Source: a virus
Virus record (IMG/VR): IMGVR_UViG_3300035701_000030
Location: 1 to 61,499 of that record
DNA: 61,499 bases
Direction: 5' to 3' (one strand)
The translations under genes were made by a program, and so were the position numbers. Shown piece after piece: positions 4,897 to 42,752 of the stretch. The first letter of the stretch is position 1. Each line of letters starts with the position of its first letter. The notes beneath the pieces were generated by a model. It was not told the DNA's origin. It ran no database searches and saw nothing but the letters and a program-made list of their open reading frames with translations.

Positions 4897-7800
4897 GTGG
4901 CAGGAGAATATAGAATTCGCTTTATGGGCGATTTGGGAAACCTATCACAATTTACCTCGGGTATAGTTGGCTCTGCGTCATCTATAAAGAGTGCCTTCAG
5001 AGCTTCGGCTGCTTCTCCAGTTACTAACTTAAAAGTTCCGGGTCTTAATATTAGTAACCTAACTACTACGGTAGACGCTGCTAATAGGGTGTTAATACAG
5101 TCAGGAACAGTATTCCACAGAACGGTGGTAGGGTGGAAAACCGATCTAGCGGCATTAGATGCCGCTACAACAAAATCGGCCCGAGCGGGTGGGGCAGCAG
5201 GGTATGGGGGTGCTTCATTTAGAACGCCTACTGGCCCTGCTGTTATGGGTTCAGGTTACGGCTCCACTAAGGGAGGAAAGCCACCAACAGCCGGGGTATA
5301 CGCTAAAGACCTAAAACCCGTATATGAAACGTTTGCAACAGGCGAATTCAGCCAAATTATGGGGGATTTTGATAAGATTAATGCCGCTACACAGGCTTTG
5401 ATCCCCGCATCCTTGGCATTAGCTGCTATAGACAAGAAAGCAGCGCTAGAATTTTATAAGTACGAGGCTGGACGTATTACTTTAATTAATATGCAAACAG
5501 CCGCTATTAGGGAGCAAACTGTTGCCAAATTAGCCCTTGAAAGAGCTTATAAAATGGGCGGCGGAACAGTCCCTAAATTTAATGCTGCTGGTGTTATGAC
5601 CGCACCCGGAAAATTAATAGCCTCAGATAAAGAAATTGCTGCGATAGCTAAACAACCTGTATATCAGGCAGTACGACAAGCAAATGCTACTATTGTTCCC
5701 CTCGCTGGTGGAGGAACAAAGAGGGTTCTACCAACCGCTGAAGCAATGAGGGGTATGGTACAAGCGGACATGGCGCTTGCTGCTGCTGGTGCTCCCACGG
5801 GGGCGAATCTTGAACTTGCAATTCGTCAAGCTAGAGGAATAGAGCTAATAGAGAAGGATATTGCTGCAAGAAATATTGTTCTTAAAGAGATTGATGCTAA
5901 ACTTACAGCAGCTAATGCTAAGCAGGAAGCCTTTAATAAAAAAGTAGCGACTCAAAGAAAAGCAATAGCTACACAGTATGCTCCAGAATATACCGCTTTA
6001 AATGAGGCTAAAACTACGCCCGGAGTACCTTATCAAATGAAAGCTCTTTTAGAGCGATCTAAATCTCTTAGAAAAGACGTAATGAAGAATCTTGATATTA
6101 CAGCACCTTTCGGAACAACAGATTTTGCAAAGCAGTTTAATGAGAAAGTTTCCTCTGTTCAAGTTTCCAAAGATTTAACAAGAGGTATAACTAACGTATC
6201 TATGGAAGCCCAGGGTGCAGACGGAATCGTTGGTAGAATGACTACTAGTTTGAATCAGCAAGGACAGACTATTGAGAAGTGGTCAGGTAGCCTTAGAAAC
6301 GCTGGAAGTACCTTAAAAATGGTTGCTGTTGATTTTAAGAAGGTTCTTGAATGGACCGTTGCTACAACCTTAGTTTTCGGAGCGTTTGGTGCAGTTATAG
6401 GTAGTATTTCTAAGGTTAATAAGGTAACTAACGACCTTCAAAGATTCCAAATTGTTTCTAAAACAACAGGAGAAGAAACTAAAGCTGCATTTGATGCGGT
6501 TGCAGAAATTGCTTATAAGACAGCAACTCCCCTCATGGAATTAACTGCTGTAATGGATGATATTGCCCTAGCTACTAGAAAGGTAGGACAAACAACTAAA
6601 GAGTGGGCCGAAGATATGAAGTACCTTACAAATGCTGTAGGTATTTTTACTAATATTGCCGGTGTGGATACAGTTAAAGCCACAGATCAGCTAAGTGCCG
6701 CATTTAAACAGCTACAGATTGATCCTGATCAGCTAACTATGATATTGAACAAGGTAACAGCCGTAGCTGGCGGAAATGCACAGGCCACTCAAGATATTAT
6801 TTCTGCTATTGGCACTGTTGCTGAAGCAGCAAAAGCTGCGGGATTTGATATAGATGAGCAGATTGCTGCTGTTCAGGTGCTGTCTCAGGTTACTAATAAA
6901 TCAGCAGCAGATATTGCTACGTCTTTCAAAAACCTATTTGGCTCTCTTAATGCTCCAGCTTCCGTAAAGGTATTAAAGTCTTTTGGAATTGAAGTTAGAG
7001 ATGCTACTGGAAATCTTAGACCCTTCTTAGATGTTTATAAAGAAATTTATGATGCAATTCAACAGGGTGTTATTCCTGAGGGTAGAGTACAGGATATTTT
7101 AAGAGCTATTTCTGGTGGTCCAAGAAGGGCACCAGATGCCGCAGCTATCTTAGGTAATCTTCCTAAAATATTTGAAACTATAGCTAAATCAGCTAATGCT
7201 ACAAATGAAGCTCTTATTGCTAATGCTAAAATATTAGATACAAATACTGCTAAGCTACAACAAATGCGGACTGCTTTTGATACGGCTATAATTAATGCAT
7301 TTACGGAGTCCGTTAATAAATTAGTTGCTGGAGTAACGGATCTAGGAAAAATATTTGCAACAGTTCTTGGTAGTAATGCTAGCTCAAGTGTAGCTAGTTC
7401 CATTATACAATTTGGAATTTTAGTAGGTTCCTTAACTTTAGTTACTAAACTTTTTGGTGGTATGCGTACTGTACTACGCGGATTGGCTACTGATTTAAAG
7501 CTTGTTGGTATACAATCTAAAGCTAACTCATACTTATTTGGAAATGCCACAGCAATAGGAAAAGGCGCGTATAAATCGCCTTTAAATTTAACAAAAACAG
7601 AACGACCGGGCTTCGCTAAGTATGTGCAACCGGGGGGACAGTTTGAGTACTGGCCCCTAGTATCGGGAACTACTCCCCCCATGCCACCCGCCTTTAAAAC
7701 TCCACCACGAGGATTACAGGGCGTAAGTGGGTTATGGCAGGGAAATAGAGCATTTAGAATGGGTTCTGCGGGATTAGGCGGAGCAGCAGCAGGATTAGCT

Positions 7801-10290
7801 TTAGGAGGAGCAGGAGCGCTTACTGGAAATGGTGCATTTTCACAAGTGGGTACAATGATAGGTGCAATGGGCTTAATGTCTATGAATCCTGTAGTAATGG
7901 GTGCAGGGGCGGCAACCCTTGCGGTATCTCAACTATTCCAAATATGGCAAGATGGAATTGAAAAAACAAAACAAAAACAAAAGACTTTACAAGCATCTAT
8001 TTATGATCAAATCAAAGCCTTACAAGAAAATCAGAGAGCCTATGAAACAATAATAGAAATTCAAGAAAATGCTAAGAAGACTATAGATGAGTTAAGTGTT
8101 AAAGCGCTTTTAAATACAGATGAAACAGAGCGTCTTACAGAAGCTCAAAATAACTACGCTACGTCTACTATTGACGCAATGGGTGCTGAAAGATCCCTTT
8201 TGGATTCTAGGGGTAAGTTGTTAGCGCAACTTCCACAGTTAGAAAAATATGCCGATTTAGCATCTAAAGCAATGTCCCTAAATCCAGCAGATTTAAAGAT
8301 GCTTGCTGAAAAATTGGCCCAAGATATATTAATATCTTCTGGAGTATACGTACCTAAACCAAGCCCTATGTATAAGCCCGCTTATGCTGAACCCCAAACC
8401 CTAGACGAAGCGTTACTTGAGCCTAGACGTAAAAAGGAAGCTCCTATTTTTGGTAGGAGTGATAAGGCTGATTTTTATAACTATGATTTAATGCCTACTA
8501 AAGAGGTTATAGAAAAATTACAGACCGGGGGAATAGAGGAAGTTATTAAATTCTTGAAGCTTCCCCACTGGACAACGGGTGGAAAGGGTGTGGAAGTTAC
8601 ACCTGAATTAGCTAATACTATTAGTACTTTATTAAGTCTAACTACAGAGGAAGAAAGAGCTAATATAGAGGGATTCGCAGATGGAGTAAAGATATTTGAA
8701 TCCAGTGTTCTTACGATGCAGGGTGTAATTGATCCCTATAATCAAATGGTTAATAACCTTGCCGGATTTAAAGCGACAACGGAGGCAAATCTGGCATTTG
8801 GTATAGGGGATACTAAAGATAATCAAAATGCGGAGCTTAGACAAAAACTAGGACAAACTTTTATAGAGTATGCTAGAAGAGTGCCAGAAACTGCGGGATA
8901 TATGAGAGGCGAGGGGCGAAGCTATGGATCTAGCGTGGGGCAAAGAGATATCAATGAACTTATGTATGGGGGCAACGGTAAGACTGGCTTCGTAAGTAAA
9001 GGAGAGGTTGCAAACACAGGAGCTATGACAGCAGACGAGGCCAAAATGCTGTTTGGGGTTATTGCGGAGTTAGATCCAGCTTTGGTAAATGCCCAAAAGA
9101 ATACGGCTGAGTATGGGGAAATGGTATATCAGTACTTTAAAAAAGCTGGCTTTGAAATAGATGGCTTACGTGACCCAGCTAGACAATTAGCTGAAGATTT
9201 TGCAACTCTGCGGGAAGAAATTGATGCAAGTGTTATATCAGGAAAACAGGCTTTGTATGATGAATTAGTAACTCTACAGGCACAAAAGCAAGGTGGAGAA
9301 TTTAAAAAGGAGCCACAATTATTTACGGGACAAAAAGAACAAGTAGAGGCCCTTATTACAGCTTATACTGAGCTAGGTGTAGCCTTTAATCAAAATGTTG
9401 CTATTCTTCCCCAACTAAGAGATAGCTTAGGAAGCGTTAAGATACTACAGGGGTTACTTCTTACAGACGTAAATAACCTATTACCCTCCTTATTAGGCTT
9501 AGCAGATAGAATGGGATTAACAGGCAAGGCTGTAGATAAGCTAAAAGACTATATAAAGGCACTTATAGGTGCAGTAACCATACTTAACGCAATGCCCGAT
9601 ACTATAATAAAAATTAGGGTTCAGATGACGACTGCCATAAAAAGCGGGAGTATGTTTGATGTTATAAATGCTGCAAGGGATGCAGCTTCAGCTATTGGTG
9701 CGGCTTCTGCCGCACAAAAGACTCAAGCTTCTGCGTTAGCGGCCATTGAAAAGCTATTTGCTAATGCGGGAGGAACTTCTTTTGGTGCGTCTACGGGAGG
9801 AGGAGGAGGAGGAGGAACAAAGGCCCCTATAGGCTCTATTGATTTACCTAAAGAATGGAAAAATCAAGCAACTCCCGTTAAAGCTTTAGTACAACAAGCT
9901 GTTGAGTGGGCTAAAAAATATCAAGCAGCTATACCGGGGGAAGACAAGGAGCATAAGAAGGACTTAGTTGCTGTAATGATGGGCAATACTAGGGTATTAT
10001 TACAAAGGGGGATTGCAGAAGAGTACCTTAAAAAAGCTATTGATGCTCTAACAGATGAAATGAAAAAAGCAAACGATACAGCAGATATGGTAGGTAGGAT
10101 AAGAATAGGAGCGGGGGACTTTGCAGCTATGGCTAATGTTCCTTTCAATAGTAAGACAGGAATAAGCGTTGGTGGGGAAGGAAATGCAATGGCTGTTAAT
10201 GTAAATATTAACGGTCAAATTCTTACCCCGGCTCAAATGGATCAACTGGCAGATCATATAGCGGCTGCTTTAAGGCCTAAATTAGTGTAA
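4897..10290 (+). CDS. Tape measure protein
   Basis: A 1797-residue protein starting at GTG, one base after the chaperone stop. Residues about 470-790 carry the TP901-type tape-measure core: a hydrophobic TLVFGAFGAVIGSI segment, then TGEETKAAFDAVAEIAYKTA, AMDDIALATRKVG-like helices, QLSAAFKQLQIDP and TNKSAADIATSFKNLFGSL. Ala/Gly-rich hydrophobic stretches near 850 and 960-1015, long helical segments and a Gly6 linker near 1640 follow. The protein sets tail length and is ejected with the DNA. At the usual rule of about 0.15 nm per residue it implies a tail of roughly 250-270 nm (inference). Its size dominates the structural module. Confidence 0.95.
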   Translation: MAGEYRIRFMGDLGNLSQFTSGIVGSASSIKSAFRASAASPVTNLKVPGLNISNLTTTVDAANRVLIQSGTVFHRTVVGWKTDLAALDAATTKSARAGGAAGYGGASFRTPTGPAVMGSGYGSTKGGKPPTAGVYAKDLKPVYETFATGEFSQIMGDFDKINAATQALIPASLALAAIDKKAALEFYKYEAGRITLINMQTAAIREQTVAKLALERAYKMGGGTVPKFNAAGVMTAPGKLIASDKEIAAIAKQPVYQAVRQANATIVPLAGGGTKRVLPTAEAMRGMVQADMALAAAGAPTGANLELAIRQARGIELIEKDIAARNIVLKEIDAKLTAANAKQEAFNKKVATQRKAIATQYAPEYTALNEAKTTPGVPYQMKALLERSKSLRKDVMKNLDITAPFGTTDFAKQFNEKVSSVQVSKDLTRGITNVSMEAQGADGIVGRMTTSLNQQGQTIEKWSGSLRNAGSTLKMVAVDFKKVLEWTVATTLVFGAFGAVIGSISKVNKVTNDLQRFQIVSKTTGEETKAAFDAVAEIAYKTATPLMELTAVMDDIALATRKVGQTTKEWAEDMKYLTNAVGIFTNIAGVDTVKATDQLSAAFKQLQIDPDQLTMILNKVTAVAGGNAQATQDIISAIGTVAEAAKAAGFDIDEQIAAVQVLSQVTNKSAADIATSFKNLFGSLNAPASVKVLKSFGIEVRDATGNLRPFLDVYKEIYDAIQQGVIPEGRVQDILRAISGGPRRAPDAAAILGNLPKIFETIAKSANATNEALIANAKILDTNTAKLQQMRTAFDTAIINAFTESVNKLVAGVTDLGKIFATVLGSNASSSVASSIIQFGILVGSLTLVTKLFGGMRTVLRGLATDLKLVGIQSKANSYLFGNATAIGKGAYKSPLNLTKTERPGFAKYVQPGGQFEYWPLVSGTTPPMPPAFKTPPRGLQGVSGLWQGNRAFRMGSAGLGGAAAGLALGGAGALTGNGAFSQVGTMIGAMGLMSMNPVVMGAGAATLAVSQLFQIWQDGIEKTKQKQKTLQASIYDQIKALQENQRAYETIIEIQENAKKTIDELSVKALLNTDETERLTEAQNNYATSTIDAMGAERSLLDSRGKLLAQLPQLEKYADLASKAMSLNPADLKMLAEKLAQDILISSGVYVPKPSPMYKPAYAEPQTLDEALLEPRRKKEAPIFGRSDKADFYNYDLMPTKEVIEKLQTGGIEEVIKFLKLPHWTTGGKGVEVTPELANTISTLLSLTTEEERANIEGFADGVKIFESSVLTMQGVIDPYNQMVNNLAGFKATTEANLAFGIGDTKDNQNAELRQKLGQTFIEYARRVPETAGYMRGEGRSYGSSVGQRDINELMYGGNGKTGFVSKGEVANTGAMTADEAKMLFGVIAELDPALVNAQKNTAEYGEMVYQYFKKAGFEIDGLRDPARQLAEDFATLREEIDASVISGKQALYDELVTLQAQKQGGEFKKEPQLFTGQKEQVEALITAYTELGVAFNQNVAILPQLRDSLGSVKILQGLLLTDVNNLLPSLLGLADRMGLTGKAVDKLKDYIKALIGAVTILNAMPDTIIKIRVQMTTAIKSGSMFDVINAARDAASAIGAASAAQKTQASALAAIEKLFANAGGTSFGASTGGGGGGGTKAPIGSIDLPKEWKNQATPVKALVQQAVEWAKKYQAAIPGEDKEHKKDLVAVMMGNTRVLLQRGIAEEYLKKAIDALTDEMKKANDTADMVGRIRIGAGDFAAMANVPFNSKTGISVGGEGNAMAVNVNINGQILTPAQMDQLADHIAAALRPKLV

Positions 10291-10305: not shown

Positions 10306-11031
10306 ATGGGTTTAGGACCAACACCACAATATTTAGCTCAATATAATAACTACGTTTTACCGGGCTATGTTCAAAGCGAAGATATGGAGTCCACTATTAA
10401 TATTGCCTCCCACTATGGCGCTTATCTAGATGGGTCAGATTCAGAGTATGTAGGGCTATCTAATAAATCCCTTAACCTATCCCTTAAGGTATGGGAACAA
10501 GATTATTTATCTTGTAAACAGCAAATAGAACTAGCAGCTACTATGATTAGAAGTTCCAAGATATTTACTAACCTGTATGTTCAATACACTGATCGTCATT
10601 ATGTAGCTTTAGCTAAATCTATTAAAATGTCCAAGTCTGTTCCATCTTCGGTGCGTACATTAGATTATAGTGTAGAGTTTGAATGCAAGCCGTGGCTTGT
10701 TGGGGAGACACTTCATTCAATTAGCTCAGATACCAATGAGGTAGGTCGCACAATAGCCGATGGTGGCTGGACACCTACGGTTGTAACCCTAACAGGCAAT
10801 AGCGTAAGTGGAATTGTAGACTGGGACGGCCAATCTACGGGCAATATTGTTACCACAGGGGTTACTAACATGGTTATAGATACCGAAGCGTTTACCGCTA
10901 CAATGGACGCAGTTAATAGAAATGATCTTATTACTACAAAAGATTATAGGCTATACGTTGGCCCCGGAAGAACAATCTTTACGGTAGATGGCTCTGCCAC
11001 AATTCAATATTACGATAGATATTATATATAG
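10306..11031 (+). CDS. Distal tail protein (Dit-like)
   Basis: A 241-residue protein with a GGGAGGG ribosome site, directly after the tape measure, where Dit proteins lie. It shares clear sequence with the last 235 residues of the giant protein encoded next: YLAQYNNYVLPGY vs YLVQYNGHLVPGY, then IASHYGAYLDGS vs TASHYTAYFDSS, LKVWEQDYLSCK vs MKVWEPTYLECK and LYVGPGR vs IYVGPGK. Dit forms the hub joining tail tube and tip. The presence of two Dit-like copies suggests alternating or two-ring hub subunits. Confidence 0.8.
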   Translation: MGLGPTPQYLAQYNNYVLPGYVQSEDMESTINIASHYGAYLDGSDSEYVGLSNKSLNLSLKVWEQDYLSCKQQIELAATMIRSSKIFTNLYVQYTDRHYVALAKSIKMSKSVPSSVRTLDYSVEFECKPWLVGETLHSISSDTNEVGRTIADGGWTPTVVTLTGNSVSGIVDWDGQSTGNIVTTGVTNMVIDTEAFTATMDAVNRNDLITTKDYRLYVGPGRTIFTVDGSATIQYYDRYYI

Positions 11032-11077: not shown

Positions 11078-14000
11078 ATGGAATACCAAGAGGTAGGACA
11101 GGCAGAAGTACAGATAGTACTTACTGATATCCAAGTCTATGCCCAAGCAGATTCCCAAATATTAACCATTAATTACGCTGTAGGTAATTCTGTTACCCAA
11201 ATTCTTGCTACATATAGTGAGAGTGGACAAGCGCTTGCTATAATACAAATTCCCTCACTACCAGTTTATTTCTATGATTCATTTACTAGGACCACTACCG
11301 CTCCACCGGCTAATGTGGGTACTGCCGATACTGGACAGACTTGGTACTGGAACGACTACGATGAAAATTTAGGCTTCGCCCTATCCACCTTACATGTAGA
11401 AAGTGGAGCTTTGGTATTACCAAATGAAGGACCCGCCCATTCAAATTATGATGCTATAAATGGTGCTCCCTCAATTGAAGAGGGAGAATTTCTAATAGAT
11501 TTTTGGGTACCAGCAGCAGGAGATATTTATCTTGATTTTAGATGGTTTGACAAAAATTGGTATATAGTAGTATTTGATACTTCTGAAACAACCTTTACTC
11601 TTGCGGGAGATATAGGGGAAACAGTATCAATAACAGGTAGGGATGCGTGGTATAGGCTCCGAGTAATAGTAGAAGGCAGTATTTCAAGTACTAAGGCACA
11701 TATATGGAAAATAGGGGAAACTGAGCCTATTACTTGGACCCAAATACAATCTACATGGAAATATATAAAATCTAATTTAGATGGTATTAGCAACTATGGG
11801 GTACCTTATAGAAACTTACTTCCAATATTTGATATCTATAATACTCCTCTTAATGAAGCGGCTAAGTTTGATAATATAACAGTTTCGGGTTATGGATATA
11901 CAGTATATAATCAAGGGTTTGGTCTTGCACAGACACAAATTCTTACTACATATAATATATATTCACAGGCTGACTCATGGACAGTATATCGTCAGGAGAC
12001 AGGAGAATATATTTGGCCGCAATTTGGACAGGCATATGCTCATATACTTACTATAGATGTACAGGCATATAGTCAAGCATTGGCTATGATAGCTCTTCAA
12101 AGATATACTACAACATTTTCAGATACATTCAGCAGAGTTACCACCCCTAATCCATTTAATTTAGGTACTTCGGATAGCGGCCATACATGGAATTGGTCTA
12201 ATTGGGCAAGTTCTACTCCTCCTACTGCTATTTATACCGATGGTTCTAACCTTATCTTTACAAGTGGTGGAAATAGTGCTTATACTATTTACCCTTCTGG
12301 CCCTTCCCCATCTTCTGGAAGTAATTATGTAGATCTATTATATGATATATGGATAACTAATTCTTATGATAGTAATCACTATTTTTATTGGTTTGAAAAA
12401 GATTGGTGGTTCTATATATATGATAACAGCGGCTCTACATTTGGGATATGGAGTTACGGTGGTTCTGGTGGCTATGCAGTTATTCGTAATTCGTTCTATA
12501 GAGTCAGAGCAATATATGATCCTACTGGTCCCGGTGGAATCTATTTAAAGGCCCATATGTGGAAAGTAGGAGATGCTGAACCCGGTACTTGGACAACTCT
12601 ACAGGTTCAGAAAGTTTATAATTACAATTCACCGGGAAATACTTATTATAATCAATCCCCTATTTTATATTGGGGTAAGCCATCTAGTGAAGCAGGAAAA
12701 CTTGATAATATTGCTTATAATAGTGTTTATAATACTGTATATAATCAAGGTCAAGCACAAGCACAAACAAATATTCTAACCACTTATCAACAGTACGGAC
12801 AAGCGCATGTAACTCTTAACCAGTCTCAATATACCGGACAGGCTTTAGCAAGCATCCTTTCAGTATATCAAAATTATTCTCAAGCACAAGCAAATATTCG
12901 TAAATCTGCTGGATACGGACAAGCAAGGGCATTACTTAATCGACACTGGGCTTTTGCCATCGCCACATTCTATAGCTTTAACCCTACTCCGGGGGCTATA
13001 AATAAATGGAATAACCATGCATATGCTCAAGCCCATATAGTAAAAAGAAATATAAGGGCTTATGGCTTAACAAGTGTACTTAATGTTTATAGAAATCCTG
13101 TTTCTGGTGCATATATATGGCCAAAATTTGCACAAGCAAATACAAAAATTATCTTAACCGGCATACAAAAATATGGCCAAGCACAGGCTTGGATGAATCT
13201 TATCATACGGCCAGCGCAAGCAATTGCTCAAATTATAAACACAGATGATGGTTATAGACGCGCTGTTCTAGCAGACCTCCCAATGGTCTATTATCCACTA
13301 GATGATGGGGCACCGGCTGGAACAAATCTAGTTAGATTCCCCGTTGGAGGGTCTGCAAGTTATACGGGCTATAATCAATATAGTGCTTCGTATGCCTATG
13401 CTAAAGCGGCAGACGGTATTCGTTCAGATGGCTGGGCTGCTTCTGGATATGCCTCGGAGCCACCAGAAGTCCGTCGTTGGTGGCAAGTAGATTGGACTGT
13501 TCCACAAACTATAAAAACAGTACGATTAATTAATCGGCCCAGTTATACATTCGGTTATGGGCGAATAATATTTAGTGACGGTACCTATTATTCAGTTACA
13601 TTTCCTAATTCAGGAAACGAGTCCCAGCTTTATTTCGTAGATGTTACAAATGTAACATCTATGCGTATAATAAGTGACGGAGGAGGCAATTCTAATCCCG
13701 GTTTCTCTGAAGTAGAAGCCTATATTGATATTGAAGTAGATACGCTTCATTCTATAGTGGGCAGAAGAAACGCTAGTTGGTGGTACAGCACAGTACCGCC
13801 ATCCTTCTCCCAAACACCCGCAATTCTGTCTGGAACATCCATCTATTTTGGCAATAATAAAGCCCTAGATGCCGGACAAAATATGTGGAGTGCCGATGCT
13901 ACTACTACTTTACCCCTAGCTATTCCCGGTCAGCACGGCCAAGAAAATAATATGAATGTAATCTCCCCTACATGGTGGGGCAAAGCGGGGGATGTTGTTA

Positions 14001-17000
14001 CTATCCATATAACGACTCCACCAACGTCTGCTGATATAGGTATATATCAAGTTGGTGGGGAAAACCAATGGTGGAGTAAGAACGGGTATCAGACCACCGG
14101 TGGTTTGGTTGGAACTGCTGGAAGAGATGTTCCATTTACATTAACTTCTACAGGCCCCCACTTTGTATACCTATGGACCTATAATGCAGGATATACGGGT
14201 ACAGGTACCGTTACTATTACAGGAAGCCCGATAGCCCCTGAGTCTACTATTCCAATGGCCGCAGGATCAGCTATAACAGTTGAAACTTGGGTCAAGTGGG
14301 ATGGTACTACCGACTACCGCATGATATTAGGATTCGACAATTATAACTTTTCCATTTTTGCCGGTAAATTAGGATTTGAGGTTCCTACTAATCAGTATTG
14401 GTCAACAGCAAGTGCTGTTTTAATTGCGGGAGTTTGGTATCATGTTGCTGCTGTTATGTATACGGAGCAACCAGTTGGTACTGCTAATAAGATATATGTT
14501 AATGGGGTACTCCAAAGTTTATCCGGCCAAAATCCAACAGGTTATTTTCAAGAATACTTTAATATAGGTGGTTGGAGTGCGAGTAATAGCTATAACGTAT
14601 ACTCTACTCTAGATGAATATGCTGTATTTAATTATGAATTAACAGCAGAACAAATTCTTGCTCATTATCAAGCAAGAATAATTATGTGGCACGCTCAAGC
14701 ACAGGCTAGAATTATTGGTTTTGGATATCCTGTATATGCTCAAGCTCTAGCAATGATAAAGGGTTTGGAGTTCGCTCAAGCCCAAGCGCATATCTTTGGC
14801 TCATATCCTCGATATGGGCAAGCATTAGGTCTGATAACCAGAGATGGTGAAGGCTTAGTACGGATGATTTGGACAGGTGAGTATACCCCTTATCCTGAAA
14901 ATATTATTGCTTGGGGCATAGAAGACCAGTCGGGTCAGATATATTATGATAATGGCGGAACTCCGGTACCTGATTATCCCGGCACTAATGCTGGTGCTGC
15001 ATGGACAACCAGATTTACTGCTGATGCTACTGGTACTTGGTCATTTAGAACAGTATCGGATGATAACTCCGAAGTAACTATTGATTCTGTTGTTATAGTA
15101 GCAAACTATAGTGATCAATTTACTACGGTTGGTACGGGACACGGTGATTGGGACCGATTTGGACCTGTTGAATTAACCTTGGGCCAAGAGTATAACCTAC
15201 ACGTTAGATGGACTCAAGGTGGAGGACCGTACACAATCCATGTCTATTATAAGCGGCCAGCAGATTCGACATGGAACTTATTATTAGATAATAAGCCCCC
15301 GTGGTTGCCCGTAAGTAAGATAAGAGTTTGGGCACAAGCGCAAGCGCAGATTTTACGTCCACCTAATATTAGAGATTATGCCCAAGCACAGGCTCGTATA
15401 TTAGCGTATAAAGTTAAGGGATATGGACAGGCGCAATCTAGATTACTAGCATTTAATCAAAATGTATGGGGACAAGCGTTAGCTTTCGTAGGGCATTTCC
15501 AGTCAGGTAACGCCCAAGCCCGTATATTAGCGTTTAATATAAATAAGTACGGCCAATCCCAAGCTAATATTCTTAAATCAGCGGGATATGGCCAAGCACA
15601 AGCCAAGTTAAATGCCTTTAATGTTAACAGGTATGCTATAGCGCACGCTAAATTAAGAGCATTTAATGTTAACGGCTTTGGACAGGCGCGAGTAACTGTT
15701 CTGCGCTCTGCATCGGGATTAACACAGGCGCGAATTAAGCAGACCTATCCTCTATTCTATCTTAATAACTATGCCTTATCCTCATTAGGAGCAACGGCTA
15801 CAGCACTTCCTGCTGAGCTTACTATACCTAATCCTAACGATTCTAATTTTGGCGGGCCAATAAATACTATAGATGGTAACTCTCTATCATTATGGGAAAG
15901 TTTAGTAAACGTTGCACCCGAAAATGACGATGAAAGAGTTAAATTAATAATCGATCTAGGACAGCATAGGGTAATAACGGGCTATTATATATTACCAGAT
16001 AAATATAACTCTACAGTAAGTCTACAATGGCATGGAAGCCCCGGAAACACTATTCCCGTTACCCAGTGGGTTACTATTGTACCTAATATATATCTTCCAG
16101 TTAATATTTCTACTCCGTTAAGTGGAGATAATGCTGTTAGAGGATTTATAGCCCCTAGCAATCAAAGATGGTGGCGATTAATAGTAACCAATGGCGGGGA
16201 CGGAAATAGGATATCATTGGCTACATTTGGTTTAGGCGTAGGGCTAATACAGAGTGGAACATTTGCTCAGGCAATGGCAATGTTTGGGCACTATGCAGTA
16301 GCACAGGCAGCATATTATATCTCCCCAGCATTCGATCAGAACGTTTATGGACAGGCGCAAGCGGATATAGTTCAGACCTACCAGATATACGGACAATCGG
16401 AAGCGTGGTTAATACCTCCTACCCAATGGTCACAGGCTCTAGCACAAATCATACAGACTTACGCCCTTGATTCTAACGCTATGGCATGGATAATACCCCC
16501 TACTCAGTGGAGCCAAGCCCTTGCTACTATTAAAGCATATGATATAGAGGCTTATGGATTCGCTAAAGCACATCTTATAGGGCACTATGCTAGATTTGGA
16601 AATGCTAGAACTTATGTCTCCAAAACACAAGGTTATGCTCATGTTGCTGTAAGTGTGTTTAAGAGGGGTAACATCGCAAGGGGCGGGGCTATAGCATACA
16701 TAGGGCACTTCCAATTCGCACAGGCAGGGGCCTTTATCTTATGGCTTGCGGCATACTCTAACGCCCAAGCGCAAATTAAAACAGATTATATCAAATCTGC
16801 TCAAGCTATAGCAGTTATACAAAGATTTGATAAGTGGGGCCTAGCAAAAGTCCATATATTACAGGATTATAGGGTTTATTCTCAGTCCATTGTACTTCTA
16901 AATCGAACTTGGGGCATAGGATTAGCAAATTCTCAAATTCATAGAACATACTATAGGTGTGCTAGTACTAGAACATGGATAAAAGATATCTATCGTGGCT

Positions 17001-17941
17001 ATGCTCAGACAGAGGCGTGGATAACGCTTAGAAACCTTAAGATTTATAGTCAAGCAAGAACGTTTGTTGTAAAGACAACAATTAGGGGGGCACAGGCACA
17101 AGTACAGATAGGCGGGTTCCAATATAGCCAAGCACAAGCGCGAATACTGGCTTATAACGTCCCTAAAGTAGCTCAATCGGCTGGTTATATACTTGCTAAT
17201 ATAAATATTGTGCCCCCAATCCCTACGAGCGGGATGGCTAGATATCTTGTTCAGTATAATGGCCATCTAGTACCGGGATATGCTCAGAGTGAGTCCTATG
17301 ATTCGATAGCCAATACCGCTTCGCATTATACAGCCTATTTTGATAGTTCCTTAAGCGAATATATAGGGCTAGAAAATAAAATTATTAGTCTTACCATGAA
17401 GGTATGGGAGCCAACCTATCTTGAATGTAAACTAAAAGTGCAGGAAGCTGCAACAATATTAAGGTCAGTTAGAAAGCAATTTGCTAGATTATATATACAA
17501 CGCACAGATAGGTATTATTTAGCTATGCCAAAGAGCCTAAAGATGGCCAAGGATGTTTCTTCAAGCGGAAAGTTTATTGATTATGATATGGAATTTGAGG
17601 CTAAACCTTGGATAATAGAGGATAGAATAAACACTATTTCTGGCACAGGGATAATAGATACAGGAGCTAGATTTGGCGGCTGGACCCCAACTACTATTCT
17701 TGTTACTGGAACAGACATTACAATAAGCGGACTTACGGAGCAGGGGCAAGATACGGGAACTATCTCAATAAGTGGGTATGTAGAAAACTTTGTTGTAGAT
17801 ACAGAGGACTTTACATCAGGGAACAACGCAGTAATAACTCCAAAGAATTATGGCATATATGTAGGGCCGGGAAAGACATACTTCACTATATCAGGGGCTA
17901 CTAGTTGCATAATTACTTATCAAAATAGGTGGTATTTATAG
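11078..17941 (+). CDS. Giant tail-tip protein: AQA-repeat/carbohydrate-binding mosaic with C-terminal Dit-like domain
   Basis: 2287 residues. Roughly 50 degenerate repeats of 13-16 residues, consensus aromatic-[GSA]-Q-A-x-A-x-[IL]-x(2)-[YF], are interrupted by globular modules: two related jelly-roll-like domains (about 64-275 and 344-550, both with FxRxTT...DxGxTWxW and AHxWKxGxxEPxTW), a discoidin-like segment (about 734-886), a LamG/concanavalin-like domain (about 1060-1196, TVETWVKWDG, WYHVAAVMYT, YVNGVLQSL), a PA14-like domain (about 1257-1407, RFTADATGTWSFRTVSDDNS) and a second discoidin-like domain (about 1557-1727, LIIDLGQHRVITGYYI). Residues 2052-2287 are Dit-like. The likely role is tail-tip assembly and binding of host surface glycans. 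The next gene starts directly at the base after its stop. Confidence 0.85.
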   Translation: MEYQEVGQAEVQIVLTDIQVYAQADSQILTINYAVGNSVTQILATYSESGQALAIIQIPSLPVYFYDSFTRTTTAPPANVGTADTGQTWYWNDYDENLGFALSTLHVESGALVLPNEGPAHSNYDAINGAPSIEEGEFLIDFWVPAAGDIYLDFRWFDKNWYIVVFDTSETTFTLAGDIGETVSITGRDAWYRLRVIVEGSISSTKAHIWKIGETEPITWTQIQSTWKYIKSNLDGISNYGVPYRNLLPIFDIYNTPLNEAAKFDNITVSGYGYTVYNQGFGLAQTQILTTYNIYSQADSWTVYRQETGEYIWPQFGQAYAHILTIDVQAYSQALAMIALQRYTTTFSDTFSRVTTPNPFNLGTSDSGHTWNWSNWASSTPPTAIYTDGSNLIFTSGGNSAYTIYPSGPSPSSGSNYVDLLYDIWITNSYDSNHYFYWFEKDWWFYIYDNSGSTFGIWSYGGSGGYAVIRNSFYRVRAIYDPTGPGGIYLKAHMWKVGDAEPGTWTTLQVQKVYNYNSPGNTYYNQSPILYWGKPSSEAGKLDNIAYNSVYNTVYNQGQAQAQTNILTTYQQYGQAHVTLNQSQYTGQALASILSVYQNYSQAQANIRKSAGYGQARALLNRHWAFAIATFYSFNPTPGAINKWNNHAYAQAHIVKRNIRAYGLTSVLNVYRNPVSGAYIWPKFAQANTKIILTGIQKYGQAQAWMNLIIRPAQAIAQIINTDDGYRRAVLADLPMVYYPLDDGAPAGTNLVRFPVGGSASYTGYNQYSASYAYAKAADGIRSDGWAASGYASEPPEVRRWWQVDWTVPQTIKTVRLINRPSYTFGYGRIIFSDGTYYSVTFPNSGNESQLYFVDVTNVTSMRIISDGGGNSNPGFSEVEAYIDIEVDTLHSIVGRRNASWWYSTVPPSFSQTPAILSGTSIYFGNNKALDAGQNMWSADATTTLPLAIPGQHGQENNMNVISPTWWGKAGDVVTIHITTPPTSADIGIYQVGGENQWWSKNGYQTTGGLVGTAGRDVPFTLTSTGPHFVYLWTYNAGYTGTGTVTITGSPIAPESTIPMAAGSAITVETWVKWDGTTDYRMILGFDNYNFSIFAGKLGFEVPTNQYWSTASAVLIAGVWYHVAAVMYTEQPVGTANKIYVNGVLQSLSGQNPTGYFQEYFNIGGWSASNSYNVYSTLDEYAVFNYELTAEQILAHYQARIIMWHAQAQARIIGFGYPVYAQALAMIKGLEFAQAQAHIFGSYPRYGQALGLITRDGEGLVRMIWTGEYTPYPENIIAWGIEDQSGQIYYDNGGTPVPDYPGTNAGAAWTTRFTADATGTWSFRTVSDDNSEVTIDSVVIVANYSDQFTTVGTGHGDWDRFGPVELTLGQEYNLHVRWTQGGGPYTIHVYYKRPADSTWNLLLDNKPPWLPVSKIRVWAQAQAQILRPPNIRDYAQAQARILAYKVKGYGQAQSRLLAFNQNVWGQALAFVGHFQSGNAQARILAFNINKYGQSQANILKSAGYGQAQAKLNAFNVNRYAIAHAKLRAFNVNGFGQARVTVLRSASGLTQARIKQTYPLFYLNNYALSSLGATATALPAELTIPNPNDSNFGGPINTIDGNSLSLWESLVNVAPENDDERVKLIIDLGQHRVITGYYILPDKYNSTVSLQWHGSPGNTIPVTQWVTIVPNIYLPVNISTPLSGDNAVRGFIAPSNQRWWRLIVTNGGDGNRISLATFGLGVGLIQSGTFAQAMAMFGHYAVAQAAYYISPAFDQNVYGQAQADIVQTYQIYGQSEAWLIPPTQWSQALAQIIQTYALDSNAMAWIIPPTQWSQALATIKAYDIEAYGFAKAHLIGHYARFGNARTYVSKTQGYAHVAVSVFKRGNIARGGAIAYIGHFQFAQAGAFILWLAAYSNAQAQIKTDYIKSAQAIAVIQRFDKWGLAKVHILQDYRVYSQSIVLLNRTWGIGLANSQIHRTYYRCASTRTWIKDIYRGYAQTEAWITLRNLKIYSQARTFVVKTTIRGAQAQVQIGGFQYSQAQARILAYNVPKVAQSAGYILANINIVPPIPTSGMARYLVQYNGHLVPGYAQSESYDSIANTASHYTAYFDSSLSEYIGLENKIISLTMKVWEPTYLECKLKVQEAATILRSVRKQFARLYIQRTDRYYLAMPKSLKMAKDVSSSGKFIDYDMEFEAKPWIIEDRINTISGTGIIDTGARFGGWTPTTILVTGTDITISGLTEQGQDTGTISISGYVENFVVDTEDFTSGNNAVITPKNYGIYVGPGKTYFTISGATSCIITYQNRWYL
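11081..13250 (+). repeat. AQA-type peptide repeats, N-terminal blocks
   Basis: About 18 repeat units occur before residue 725 (for example YGQAQAWMN, YSQAQANIRK, FAQANTKII), split by the two jelly-roll-like domains. The repeat is at protein level; DNA copies have diverged at synonymous sites, so it is not a simple DNA tandem repeat. Confidence 0.75.
15325..15755 (+). repeat. AQA-type peptide repeats, central block
   Basis: About ten near-contiguous units of 13-16 residues (YAQAQARILAY, YGQAQSRLLAF, WGQALAFVGHF, YGQAQAKLNAF). They alternate small and hydrophobic residues in a way that suggests beta-strand rungs. Confidence 0.75.
16260..17215 (+). repeat. AQA-type peptide repeats, C-terminal block
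   Basis: About 23 units between the second discoidin-like domain and the Dit-like domain (YGQAQADIVQTY, WSQALAQIIQTY, YSQAQARILAY). Two neighbouring pairs (YGQSEAWLIPPTQ then WSQALAQI; SNAMAWIIPPTQ then WSQALATI) suggest local duplication. Confidence 0.75.
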
Positions 17942-20671
17942 ATGTTACAAGTGAGAATTAGCACTCCAGAATTCTCTGACGGGGTAAACTTTGTTGATCC
18001 CATAGTACTAGAAAAAGCAACTGATATATCCTTGCGCAAAACAGTTAGTTCCAGCGAGGAAGGCATTCAGTTTAAAGTTCCTATCAACGATATTAAAACT
18101 CCTTTTATAACCTATCTTAGATGGTGGGAATGTTGGGATACTGAAACAAATACTAGATTAAATTATGGGCCTATAGAAAGCATTAATAGGTCAGGGGGAG
18201 ATTCCAAATCTGTTTCGGGGCCGGGAAGATCCGCCTTGTTTAGAGATTATTATAAGAGTATTCAAACATTTTATTATCCAATTAACGTATTCTTAGATGA
18301 TCTTCGCTATGAAAACCTATCTTCCGAACCTAGAACAACTGCTCTTATTAATCAGGATACCTCTTCTGCCTATTATGGCGTAAGTAAGCGTAGCAAGGAT
18401 TATGTTATAGATGAACAAACGGGGTATGTTGCCGTGGGAAGAGATACACCCTCTAGGGGTGTTATTAAAACATCCCAATTTTGGTCGGGAATAGGCAGAG
18501 CAGATCATATTATAGTTGATCTTGGAGAAAAGTATAAAATATCAAAATCTAGGATAATTCTTCCGTGGTGGGGAGGATCTACGCAGACTTATAGTAGAAC
18601 ATATGATTGGAGTTGGCAGTATTCAAACGATAATGAGGGCTATACTTCTATATATACATCGCCAATACCTAACTACAGCAAAACTACTAATGCAGGTGGT
18701 ATAGGCCAAACTATTTATACAGGAGAGAGTGGCTTTGAGGATAGCCAGCATACAGCCACTAGCGGTGCGATAGATGCTAGGTATTGGAAATTAGATATAA
18801 GCAATACTCATGCTTGGTACGGAAATTTCTTTGTTGCAGGAACCCTTACTGATGAGTGGGCGTGGGAGTGCGGTGGTAGTAACACGTTTAAAGGTGATTC
18901 TAAGCCATCTCCCGCTACTACGAGCGGGTCCATTATACCTACTACGGATATCAACCCAAATAGCGATTGTTATGCTTCTGTTATTGAGCTAAGTCTTATG
19001 AAAAAGATAGTTGGGATGGATACTATTACTGACTTAGCCTATCACCAAATTCAAGGTGATAATAAACAAATAACTTATTGGCACATGCCAACAGAAGCGG
19101 AAATGATAGGGGGAAAAAAGTTTGAACCGGGAACGTTCTTTAGAAAGATAAAAGTATCTGGTTCCCCCGGAAAGATTAAGGATGAGTATAACACTATTAT
19201 TGCTGATGGCAACAATAGTGGTAATTGGATAAAAACCCCTGCTTATTGTAGGTTGGTTTTATTTGAGAGTGCCGCTAGGGTATTAGAAGTAGATACATGG
19301 CCCGGTAAAATGGATGCCTTTTCTTATGGTGGTAGCTATTCCTATAGTGAAATGGCTAATGACTATGCTATTTTAAATTTTAGGGGAATATCAATAAAGT
19401 GGTTTGCTACTATACCATCTGGTAAAACTCCCGGTACAGTATCAATAGAGCTTAGAAGTAAAACAGGAACAGACTCTTGGAGTGATTGGGATTTTCTAGA
19501 AGACAGTCTAACCCTGCCCTCTGATGTATCAGGGACAAAGGTTTGGGAGATAACTGTAGAATCAGAGATTTTAGTAGATGAAACCTCTTATCAACTAAGA
19601 ATAACTAATCTGGATGGTGGATTTGTATCAATAGACGCGTTTGCGGGGTATTGGTCAGCTACCATGTCGGATTATAATGAGGATCACGCTCGTATATCGT
19701 TTAGAATCCCCGCTGAGATTAATCAGATATTTGATTCTAAATTTACTAATGGTAGTGCCTATAAATTTATCGAGCCCGGAGAATATACTAAAGGCGGGTT
19801 GGGATTTATGGGAGATAGGGTTATAATATATTCCAGAAAAGGTGTTGATTATGGCCTAATTGATCTAGCTATAATAGGTAAAACTTCCGTAGGAGAAGCC
19901 GTAGTTATACACATACCGGGGGGTAATCCAAACGGGACTCTTACAGTTGATTTGGATAATCCTACGGATGTACCACAGTTTATTGTTTTTGATAGTAATG
20001 ATTATTTTGAAAATGGTCTTCCGTGGGATTGGTATAGTGCTATTGTTTATAAGCCAGAAGATCCTGATCCCATGTGGGTTGATGGTTGGTCTGTTCACGA
20101 AACCAACGGCCTTAGTGTTAAGTTTATGAATACTAATTACTTGGATATAATAAAATCTACATCTGAGGCTCTTCAAATGGAGTGGGATGTTACTGAGCTA
20201 GGTCTAAAAATTGTTCCGAGATTAGGTGAGGATACAGAAATTATATTTGCTGAGGGTCGAGGTACAACCATTGATATCGATGATACAGAAGACATTGGTG
20301 AAGTAGCTACTATGCTACTTGCTACTGGAGCCGATATAGATGGACTTCCCATGTCTACAATAGTAGAGGATAAAAAGACAAGAGCAATAATGGGTAGAAC
20401 CATTCAAAGAACTTATGACTCTCTTAGGAATACAGCAGACTATTTTACACTAATCGGAGCTTCTAGAACAGAGTTAATTAGGAGAAGAGAGCCACAGAAA
20501 AGAGTAACTGTTAAGCGTGCAACTGATATGCCTATACATGAGGGAGATAGTTTTATTGTTAAGAAGGCAGAGTTAGAATTAAGAGTTCGTGCAAATAGCA
20601 TCACTAGAACCCAATCAAATGGTGGTACAGAATGGTCTGTGGAGTGTGTAAAATGGCCAGCGATAGCTTAA
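17942..20671 (+). CDS. Tal-like tail-tip protein with discoidin-like insertion
   Basis: 909 residues, with its ATG directly abutting the preceding stop (translational coupling). Residues about 120-355 resemble an F5/8 type C (discoidin) fold: HIIVDLGEKYKISKSRIILP, YDWSWQYSNDN, ARYWKLDISNT, IELSLM. The C-terminal part (about 640-909: MNTNYLDIIKSTSEALQMEW, ILxxGADIDGLP, RRREPQKRVTVKRAT, IHEGDSFIVKKAELELRVRA) resembles the tail-associated or Gp37-like proteins found after Dit in siphophages. It probably forms the tail-tip plug/baseplate hub and binds glycans through the discoidin-like domain. No peptidase motif was seen. Confidence 0.78.
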   Translation: MLQVRISTPEFSDGVNFVDPIVLEKATDISLRKTVSSSEEGIQFKVPINDIKTPFITYLRWWECWDTETNTRLNYGPIESINRSGGDSKSVSGPGRSALFRDYYKSIQTFYYPINVFLDDLRYENLSSEPRTTALINQDTSSAYYGVSKRSKDYVIDEQTGYVAVGRDTPSRGVIKTSQFWSGIGRADHIIVDLGEKYKISKSRIILPWWGGSTQTYSRTYDWSWQYSNDNEGYTSIYTSPIPNYSKTTNAGGIGQTIYTGESGFEDSQHTATSGAIDARYWKLDISNTHAWYGNFFVAGTLTDEWAWECGGSNTFKGDSKPSPATTSGSIIPTTDINPNSDCYASVIELSLMKKIVGMDTITDLAYHQIQGDNKQITYWHMPTEAEMIGGKKFEPGTFFRKIKVSGSPGKIKDEYNTIIADGNNSGNWIKTPAYCRLVLFESAARVLEVDTWPGKMDAFSYGGSYSYSEMANDYAILNFRGISIKWFATIPSGKTPGTVSIELRSKTGTDSWSDWDFLEDSLTLPSDVSGTKVWEITVESEILVDETSYQLRITNLDGGFVSIDAFAGYWSATMSDYNEDHARISFRIPAEINQIFDSKFTNGSAYKFIEPGEYTKGGLGFMGDRVIIYSRKGVDYGLIDLAIIGKTSVGEAVVIHIPGGNPNGTLTVDLDNPTDVPQFIVFDSNDYFENGLPWDWYSAIVYKPEDPDPMWVDGWSVHETNGLSVKFMNTNYLDIIKSTSEALQMEWDVTELGLKIVPRLGEDTEIIFAEGRGTTIDIDDTEDIGEVATMLLATGADIDGLPMSTIVEDKKTRAIMGRTIQRTYDSLRNTADYFTLIGASRTELIRRREPQKRVTVKRATDMPIHEGDSFIVKKAELELRVRANSITRTQSNGGTEWSVECVKWPAIA

Positions 20672-20898
20672 AACAAGTAGGCAAAGATCTAAAGCACACA
20701 CAGGATCAAACCAACCACTCAACCCGCAGATTTGCTCAAAATTTACCTACAGTAGAAAAAAGTTTAGATAGAGTAGGTACATTATATACGTTTAGGATGG
20801 ATTTTTATACTCATACTACATCTCCTAGTGTACATATTTATATTAAAGTTTTACCCCGTTTTAGAAGTATGAGATATGTTGGTGCAGGAAATGGATAA
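20653..20898 (+). CDS. Short tail-tip protein sharing the N-terminal attachment module
   Basis: 81 residues from an internal ATG at 20653, overlapping the end of the Tal-like gene by 19 nt. An earlier ATG at 20632 is less likely. Its LKQVGKDLKHTQDQTNH-STRRFAQNLP segment aligns with the N-termini of the next two genes, and almost nothing follows the shared module. It may be a minimal adaptor, or the remnant of a longer receptor-binding gene. Confidence 0.75.
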   Translation: MASDSLKQVGKDLKHTQDQTNHSTRRFAQNLPTVEKSLDRVGTLYTFRMDFYTHTTSPSVHIYIKVLPRFRSMRYVGAGNG

Positions 20899-21583
20899 AG
20901 TAAATCAACTAGGCAAAACATTACAGAAAACTAGAAATGAAGTAAATCAAAATGCCCGACGTGGGGCAGAAAATTTTCCAACTCCTGAGATTTCGGTTAA
21001 AGATTTCAATAGATTATTTACGTATAAAAAAACGTTTGAAGCGCACTCAGATGCCTTAGTCCGTCTTAACGTCGGGTTAAAAGAAATTACCACGCCTTGT
21101 TCTGTTAATCCCCCTATAATTAATAAGTGGTGTAGGTTGAAATTTAATGATGCCGGAATACCGGGCACTATGCTTGAAAGTAACGGTGAATTTATTCTTA
21201 ATGGTGACGGTACGATAACTGTGCCGGATAGCGGCTGCTACTCAATAACACTTACCTCTGCTGCTTGGGGGCTATCTTATACTGCGGGGCTGTCTCAATT
21301 TGCTTCTTTCTATCATAACTATAAGGTAGTAAAGTCTTATACCAAGTATGCTACAGGGTTTATTTCTATTTTAGGCCCATTAATATGGGTAATTCCATCT
21401 ATTACCCACCTATATCAAGTTATAGAAGCTAAGGCAGGAGATACATTAAGTGCATCCCTATCAGAGAATATAGGTGGGTTATGTTCAGGAACTTGGTGGG
21501 GATGTTTACTACATAACGCATTCTTCGGGCTTTCTAATACTTGGATTAAAATTGATTTAATAGCTCTAGCGGAGAGTGTATAA
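20891..21583 (+). CDS. Putative receptor-binding/tail-tip protein, shared N-terminal module
   Basis: 230 residues. The ATG at 20891 (after GCAGGAA) is preferred over 20876 because MDKVNQLGKTLQKTRNEVNQN then lines up with both paralogues. Residues 1-65 are the shared module. The rest is a beta-rich, Ser/Gly/aromatic domain (FNDAGIPGTMLESNG, VPDSGCYSITLTSAAWG) reminiscent of TNF/C1q-type jelly rolls, but not diagnostic. Its start overlaps the previous stop and its end overlaps the next start, so the three genes are coupled. Confidence 0.75.
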   Translation: MDKVNQLGKTLQKTRNEVNQNARRGAENFPTPEISVKDFNRLFTYKKTFEAHSDALVRLNVGLKEITTPCSVNPPIINKWCRLKFNDAGIPGTMLESNGEFILNGDGTITVPDSGCYSITLTSAAWGLSYTAGLSQFASFYHNYKVVKSYTKYATGFISILGPLIWVIPSITHLYQVIEAKAGDTLSASLSENIGGLCSGTWWGCLLHNAFFGLSNTWIKIDLIALAESV

Positions 21584-22842
21584 TGAGAGGTTTACGTAAA
21601 ATAGGGGAATCCCTACAAAAAGATGCTACCGAAACTGCTCATAATACACGCAGAATTGCCGCTAATTTGCCTTTAATCGAGAGAAAGTTAGACATAGTAT
21701 CAGGCGATACTAATTATAAGTTAGAGTTTCCTATAACAGAAAGAAGTCACGCTGTTAGTTTAAACATACAGATAAAGCCAGATAATTGCTGTGATTGTTT
21801 ACCGGGGGCAGAGCCAGCTAGGAGATACATGACGGGATATGCCGACTACTTCTGGAATGAGCAACTTCAAATTATACATGATCCTAGTGGCCATCCTGAA
21901 TTAGACTCTTATCCGCCACACCAACAGGAAAGTGGAGTGGACTATCGAGCAAGATACCATGATCCCCTAGATACAGAGGGAAGTATTACAAACATATGGT
22001 TTGCTTGGGAAAACTATCCTTGGTTCTTCCCAACAGTTGAAAATAACTGGAACTATGGACAATTTCTACCCATGCTTGATGGGGGAATAAGGGTTCCTGT
22101 TAATGGCGTATACACCATGATATTTAGAAACAGGGCAGGAGGAGGTACAACAGATAGTAGCCAAATCGTAGCCTCTATAAAGCGCCTACCTAATGGGGAA
22201 GATACATTTGATCCTACTAAGTGGGAAACTATCTCTAGGAAAATATACTCTACTGCTAGGGAAAATATTTGCACATATATTCCTCTAAGTTGGGCATTAG
22301 GGTGGGGATGGAATCCTGATCCTATAGATATTATTACAGTAGGTGGGGGAGAGTACGCTAAATGTTGCGCCTCTTATGGGCGAAATATAAACTTTGGCCC
22401 AACAGTTATTGAGCGCATAGGGGGACTTTACATAGAAGTTTATGCCTATTGCGTACCACTTAATGAGGGCGATCTTATAGGCGGCTGGCTAAAAGCTACT
22501 GATGTAAATAGTTGGAAACCTAGTGAGTCCAACGGAGCAGAGTCTAGTACTACAATGATTGATTTAATCGGATTAGGTTTTGGAGCATTAACGGGATTAA
22601 TAACCCACGATAATACCGGGCAACCCTTAGAGGGAGTTACAGTAGTTGCTAATAATGGATCAACATCGTTTGAGACACTTACGAATGATGAGGGTAGGTA
22701 TACCTTTTATGATTTAACTCCTGATTTAACTTATACAGTTACTATATCTAAGAATGGGTACTTTACTCAGTCCAAAACTATTAAAATAGTATTTAATGTA
22801 TTAGTGGAGTTAGATTTTATAATATTACACGTACCACAGTAG
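21583..22842 (+). CDS. Putative receptor-binding protein with C-terminal carboxypeptidase-regulatory-like domain
   Basis: 419 residues starting in a TAATG overlap. Residues 1-65 are the shared module (LRKIGESLQKDATETAHNTR). The middle is a large aromatic-rich beta domain with a CCDCLPG motif. Residues about 340-419 form a classic carboxypeptidase-regulatory/CNA-B-like Ig domain (GLITHDNTGQPLEGVTVVAN, TNDEGRYTFYDL, YTVTISKNGYF). Such domains are common in surface-binding proteins. It is likely a host-adsorption protein of the tail tip. Confidence 0.75.
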   Translation: MRGLRKIGESLQKDATETAHNTRRIAANLPLIERKLDIVSGDTNYKLEFPITERSHAVSLNIQIKPDNCCDCLPGAEPARRYMTGYADYFWNEQLQIIHDPSGHPELDSYPPHQQESGVDYRARYHDPLDTEGSITNIWFAWENYPWFFPTVENNWNYGQFLPMLDGGIRVPVNGVYTMIFRNRAGGGTTDSSQIVASIKRLPNGEDTFDPTKWETISRKIYSTARENICTYIPLSWALGWGWNPDPIDIITVGGGEYAKCCASYGRNINFGPTVIERIGGLYIEVYAYCVPLNEGDLIGGWLKATDVNSWKPSESNGAESSTTMIDLIGLGFGALTGLITHDNTGQPLEGVTVVANNGSTSFETLTNDEGRYTFYDLTPDLTYTVTISKNGYFTQSKTIKIVFNVLVELDFIILHVPQ

Positions 22843-42524: not shown

Positions 42525-42752
42525 TTAATTATTGATTAGCTTAGTGGGTGAAAGTTGCACAATAACTTTCATTCCCAAGCCTACAAATTGCTCAAAACAG
42601 TCGTAATCTATAATCAGCGTTCTAGTACTGCGGGGGCTTTTATAAAAGACCTCTGCTTTTTCTATTGTTATGGCTTCCTCGCAAAAGAAACAAAACTCTT
42701 CGGGGGAAGGCTCTGAAAAATTAACGGCAAATGCATATCTAGGGGATGAAAT
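42525..42752 (-). CDS. Small protein translated from a predicted AUU start (75 aa)
   Basis: An open frame of 75 codons fills a 226-bp gap in this tightly packed operon. It has no ATG, GTG or TTG near its beginning; an in-frame TAG lies six codons upstream. The strong ribosome site AGAGGAGG lies 6 nt before an ATT codon at 42750-42752, inside the end of the RuvB-like gene (14-nt overlap). The product has a CFFC pair (EEFCFFCEEAITIE), RSTRTLIIDYDCF and KVIVQLSPTKL. AUU initiation is rare in bacteria (infC is the known example). Confidence 0.6.
   Translation of the reverse strand: MSSPRYAFAVNFSEPSPEEFCFFCEEAITIEKAEVFYKSPRSTRTLIIDYDCFEQFVGLGMKVIVQLSPTKLINN

Follow-up and report, generated by a model that had tools for sequence, protein, structure and literature searches.

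Results

The DNA analysed here, which we call the window, is the whole 61.5-kb stretch of a virus record. A cluster of tail genes of the siphophage type lies on its plus strand, where a tape measure protein of 1797 aa (TMP; 4897..10290; PF10145, 2.2e-18; phrog_4211 tape measure, 1.1e-20) is followed by a stand-alone Dit of 241 aa (10306..11031), by a giant protein of 2287 aa in which AQA repeats precede a C-terminal Dit domain (11078..17941), and by a Tal-like protein of 909 aa placed after Dit (17942..20671). The ORF of the giant starts with ATG and is open from end to end. The Tal-like protein, which is 38–60% identical between contigs, contains a weak F5_F8-like segment (PF22633, 9e-4) and gave no match in a PDB comparison. 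Beyond it lie two ORFs that are conserved among relatives and possibly encode more tail-tip proteins (20876-22842), the second with a CarboxypepD_reg domain (5e-13) close to its C-terminus, and a glycosyltransferase gene adjoins the tail genes (23508-24698; phrog_2170, 1.8e-45). The minus-strand half of the window encodes a RuvB-like/clamp-loader-like ATPase (42739-43752) and an AAA ATPase (52651-54141; phrog_10440, 1.6e-99). Neither the DnaB of the window nor the terminase of the relative G001, described below, gave a usable pointer to the host.

The giant contains 47 non-overlapping AQA cores, spaced 12–16 residues apart, as scored with a PSSM trained on the family (core [aromatic]-[AG]-Q-A-x-A-x-I); shuffled sequences contain 0.75 on average and 2 at most. 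The simple motif [YFW]xQAxA occurs 24 times, versus 0.6 in shuffles. An earlier note, made from the letters of this DNA, had put the number at about 50 repeats of 13–16 residues, which agrees well with these counts. By the PSSM, the repeats fall into six plus-strand arrays with modules between them: array 1 at 11093..11245 (residues 6-56), array 2 at 11918..12091 (281-338), array 3 at 12752..13249 (559-724), array 4 at 14690..14836 (1205-1253), array 5, with ten repeats, at 15329..15748 (1418-1557), and array 6, the longest, at 16262..17215 (about residues 1729-2046). The repeats differ among themselves at the DNA level. An 'xTYP' motif is found at 13 of 108 array exits versus 2 of 641 internal junctions, a descriptive count in which orthologues are included and are not independent. 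The 'QANTG' fibre repeats of L018 and L030, which came up in the viral scan, are unrelated to AQA and were set aside. We found no relevant literature on AQAQA repeats in phages, and we regard the AQA repeat as an undescribed beta-strand repeat.

Six modules, all on the plus strand, lie among the arrays. Two of them, named after their D[ST]FxR motif (A, 11246..11917, residues 57-280; B, 12092..12751, residues 339-558), are 34% identical to each other and recur in relatives; neither matches a Pfam family, and their 'jelly-roll-like' fold is putative. A discoidin-type module (13331..13735; DUF7402/F5_F8_type_C) matches DUF7402 at 7.6e-10 (residues 767-882). A LamG module (14252..14656, about residues 1059-1193) matches Laminin_G_3 at 5e-16 when only its own segment is scanned and whatever separates the LamG pieces is omitted. 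A PA14 module (14837..15328) is matched at residues 1295-1394, and its isolated segment scores 8.1e-9. The second discoidin-type module (15749..16261, residues 1554-1728) is weak in the window (E 0.046), and the aligned orthologue in G001 matches F5_F8 at 4.6e-9. The LamG-like, PA14-like and two discoidin-like modules named in the earlier note are thus all recovered by profile, the second discoidin in its G001 orthologue, and by sequence most modules of the giant fall into classes known to bind carbohydrates or proteins. Between a LamG-like start ('VLADLPMVYYPLDD') and the body of the LamG module come the first discoidin and another, unassigned beta-rich stretch (13249-14252), and this order (LamG-like start, discoidin, stretch, LamG body) recurs in G001 and G021. 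It looks as if both were nested inside LamG, which is only suggestive because the Pfam match starts at profile position 13, past both stretches.

The C-terminal Dit domain of the giant (17228..17938, plus strand), comprising a ring half and a galectin-like half, is supported by alignment to the stand-alone Dit and by fold matches. The last 234 residues of the giant are 50% identical to the 241-aa stand-alone paralogue. The modelled C-terminus matches SPP1 Dit (2x8k, E 2.5e-8, TMt 0.5), the monocin tip, baseplate proteins of p2, 80alpha and Douge, and many 'Distal tail protein' entries of BFVD. Members of the family match phrog_202 (2.2e-6), phrog_33 (1.2e-5) and SPP1_Dit (PF22768, 8.9e-5); the stand-alone Dit of the window, scanned alone, matched none of the PHROG or Pfam Dit profiles. 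Because of the 50% identity together with the profile and fold matches, we conclude that two adjacent genes of the window are, or end in, Dit. Profile, fold and its place between TMP and Tal therefore all put the giant in the Dit family. The Dit-like end described in the earlier note holds up well; the upstream stand-alone Dit and the Tal-like next gene had been overlooked there.

The first relative, contig G001 (105.7 kb), was reached through the Tal-like protein and encodes a giant of 3047 aa at the equivalent locus. In IMG/VR, a DNA pattern of two successive repeats retrieved 47 stretches, most of them genuine AQA ORFs; the resulting prevalence of AQA giants is a lower bound set by one exact DNA pattern. 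A Dit profile found a stand-alone Dit followed by a giant ending in Dit in ten of the pattern contigs besides the window, and the order TMP, Dit, zero to three genes, giant AQA-Dit, Tal is present in 11 IMG/VR contigs including the window. We count these as about ten independent lineages because two of the 11 (L095 and L101) look near-identical. In L068 and L102, a Dit is accompanied by an AQA giant truncated by the contig end. The ordinary TMP-Dit-Tal triad (G013; L103) is seen as well, and in L103 the interval from Dit to Tal lacks a giant. The protein is thus not the lone oddity it had first appeared to be, but a gene conserved at this place in about ten lineages of phages.

All relatives are metagenomic. 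The giant, Tal and Dit gave no match by tblastn against 50,697 phage records, and a regular AQA array gave none against phages and plasmids, a search in which the low-complexity filter of BLAST may hide repeats. The two-repeat DNA pattern matched six times in 85,000 genomes, none real on inspection, a result that holds for that exact pattern. Nor does any single family of PHROGs, INPHARED or Pfam span the whole protein, in keeping with the earlier view that no described phage family is known to have such a layout.

Between the window, G001 and G021, the C-terminal half of the giant is about 40% identical and the N-terminal modules differ, which argues for module exchange along a conserved backbone; the repeats are the constant component between the swapped modules. 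G001 also encodes two extra AQA proteins of 1569 and 1625 aa (L012:8522-13231 and L012:13231-18108), beyond the tail-tip cluster and upstream of the terminase, with very regular repeats of 14/15 residues. The second has an end stretch with 'LSD' motifs, as at the ends of the L048 and L053 proteins.

Stand-alone and fused Dits fall on opposite sides of a single branch in trees of the full length (91/96) and of the ring half (97/96), and the ring-half split is present in 98% of bootstrap trees. Their ring halves are 35–51% identical. The tree of the galectin half, in contrast, mixes the two groups, which points to exchange between paralogues or to poor signal. In G018 (L100) and G007 (L096), the galectin halves of the stand-alone and fused Dits are 65% and 59% identical and the ring halves 43% and 40% (alignment A7), which suggests gene conversion between the paralogues. 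In G001, G006 and G019, the fused Dit is reduced to its ring half, and that half is present in all complete loci. The split of the ring half indicates that the stand-alone and fused Dits stem from one old duplication, and the mixing in the galectin half fits later exchange of the C-terminal half. The earlier note had placed a Dit-like domain at the end of the giant; what it lacked is that this domain would have arisen as the second copy when Dit was duplicated.

In AlphaFold models the repeats form ordered beta-structure, and the disorder that would have spoken against the earlier description is absent. A 578-residue model of residues 1710-2287, built with 11 sequences, has a mean pLDDT of 67, rising to 70–80 in mid-array, and one strand per repeat. 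For residues 1415-1558, which cover array 5, an in-register alignment of 35 arrays gave a model with pLDDT 83.3 and pTM 0.77, the five models ranging from 60 to 83. The modelled strands span about 9–12 residues per repeat and are joined by short turns.

The lengths of the repeats follow a rule of their own. Across 50 arrays (627 units), the fraction of same-length repeats at lags 1, 2, 3 and 4 is 0.58, 0.70, 0.58 and 0.64, reached in 0 of 500 shuffles, and the tail residues 9-12 alternate likewise with period two (0 of 500). Because lengths and tails both alternate in this way, the structural unit is two repeats, or 28–29 residues, and a single repeat is, in the models, either one strand within a sheet or no more than half of a rung. 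The proposal that the repeat forms a beta-solenoid rung thus stands as regards beta-structure and fails as regards one repeat per rung, given the period-two alternation and the single strand per repeat. The repeat model gave no significant fold match in the PDB (best E 0.11), so that assignment to the curli/Fap functional amyloids does not follow. Its weak fold neighbours are headed by FapC and CsgA, which we take to be amyloids with two strands per rung; the remaining neighbours are, we assume, mostly beta-helix or solenoid proteins.

Discussion

In the account that best fits these data, the giant serves as an adhesin at the tail tip and derives from a duplicated Dit; we consider this explanation as a whole probable. 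An ancestral Dit gene would have duplicated in this lineage, one copy remaining a plain ring protein and the other acquiring a long N-terminal extension of AQA repeats and interchangeable binding modules. The Dit domain of the giant would join the tail-tip Dit ring, either as a second ring beside that of the stand-alone Dit or in a mixed ring, from which several arms would stick outward. Each AQA repeat would contribute a single beta strand, and a pair of repeats would most likely complete a rung; the resulting beta-solenoid would be thin and two-sided, its interior lined by Ala/Ile and its surface by Tyr/Gln. Such a two-repeat solenoid could therefore act as a stiff spacer between exchangeable modules, and the LamG, PA14, discoidin and D[ST]FxR modules may bind host glycans or surface proteins. 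We infer the location in the virion, the ring stoichiometry, the solenoid topology and the binding of ligands, as well as the roles of adhesin array and spacer, from these lines of evidence taken together. Carbohydrate binding is not universal in the LamG, PA14 and discoidin classes, and this counts against the adhesin reading. So do the second Dit reduced to its ring half in G001, G006 and G019, the mixed tree of the galectin half, the spread of pLDDT among the five repeat models and the finding that no fold match to the repeat reaches significance.

The fold of the repeat is where an alternative comes closest to the data. The repeats could instead form a flat, antiparallel, up-and-down beta sheet, or meander, with the remaining model unchanged. 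One strand of about 9–12 residues per repeat, short turns and period-two turn lengths fit such a sheet as well as a two-repeat rung. In a meander, however, the Ala/Ile face would be exposed, whereas in a solenoid it packs inside, and for this reason we prefer the solenoid. Moreover, the weak fold neighbours, FapC and CsgA leading, are mostly solenoids, and some modelled strands continue through the short inter-repeat joints, which tight hairpins would break. Repeat-to-repeat mutual information, which bears on parallel versus antiparallel pairing, has a diagonal inflated by related repeats; parallel rung stacking would fit the period-two alternation and the weak solenoid neighbours, and the model of array 5 shows an ordered beta repeat array. 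On balance, we consider a meander unlikely and a two-sided beta-solenoid the likelier fold. A fuller proposal, that the repeat is a new beta-solenoid class with a two-repeat rung and that the lineage also uses a dedicated, gene-duplicated second Dit ring with N-terminal solenoid arms acting like a rail for module swapping, we advance only tentatively.

Other readings concern the ring, the function of the protein and the DNA itself. The giant and the stand-alone Dit might share one hexameric ring rather than form two, and the identity of their ring halves makes mixed contacts conceivable. We find this rather doubtful, as two stacked Dit rings exist in phage p2 (PMC7472080) and the separate clades suggest distinct, non-interchangeable roles. 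It is also conceivable that the giant is no permanent part of the virion and docks through Dit only during assembly, either as a scaffold or as a factor that is later released to act as an adhesive or a decoy. Since the second Dit lacks the galectin-like half in three contigs, full Dit function may at times be dispensable, as this would require. Against it stand the constant place between Dit and Tal, a ring half that is kept wherever the locus is complete, and modules of binding types typical of adsorption devices, and we judge it improbable. Finally, assembly can be misled by repeats, and the array might be spurious, produced when a repetitive region was assembled or translated. The repeats are unlike at the DNA level, however, the frame is fully open, and the architecture is shared by about ten separately assembled contigs of diverged sequence; these independent contigs refute the artefact, to which we assign practically no weight. 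We thus return to a tail-tip adhesin on a duplicated Dit. If this is correct, siphophages can make a tail-hub ring into a multi-module adhesin through Dit duplication. The AQA array would offer a repeat scaffold from nature that follows a clear rule in its sequence and has a testable structure and modules already swapped among relatives, and the giant AQA-Dit would serve as a marker for a phage lineage with no cultured relative among the records searched.

Several known systems resemble parts of this arrangement. Tal is held by hexameric rings of Dit, and the usual gene order is TMP-Dit-Tal; in evolved Dits, the galectin domain has one or two carbohydrate-binding modules inserted in its loops (PMC7291167), insertions that help adsorption (PMC10688798). 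Like these evolved Dits of lactococcal, streptococcal and Lactobacillus siphophages (PMC7291167, PMC10688798), the giant is a Dit with binding modules, presumably in a tail-tip ring tied to adsorption. Here, though, the modules lie not in the galectin loops but all N-terminal to the Dit domain, which needs no more than short gaps to align with the stand-alone Dit; some 2,000 residues, with repeats between six modules, precede it. An evolved Dit, moreover, is the phage's Dit, whereas here a plain paralogue (10306-11031) is kept beside the giant. Strictly defined, the evolved Dits thus do not include the giant, yet it would work like one.

We found no relevant literature on a second Dit gene. 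Phage p2 has a second Dit hexamer at its tail tip, both rings coming from one gene (PMC7472080); the ring proposed here would resemble it but draw on two genes. CsgA and FapC, the top weak fold neighbours, share with the AQA repeat its short, Gln-rich character but differ in repeat length and motif, with no significant score, and the AQA array would be a spacer between modules rather than a fibre subunit. The modular tail fibres and Tal extensions of siphophages are likewise long, modular, variable and host-facing, but siphophage fibres are anchored by Tal or by an N-terminal fibre-anchoring domain, whereas the giant would be anchored by its C-terminal Dit.
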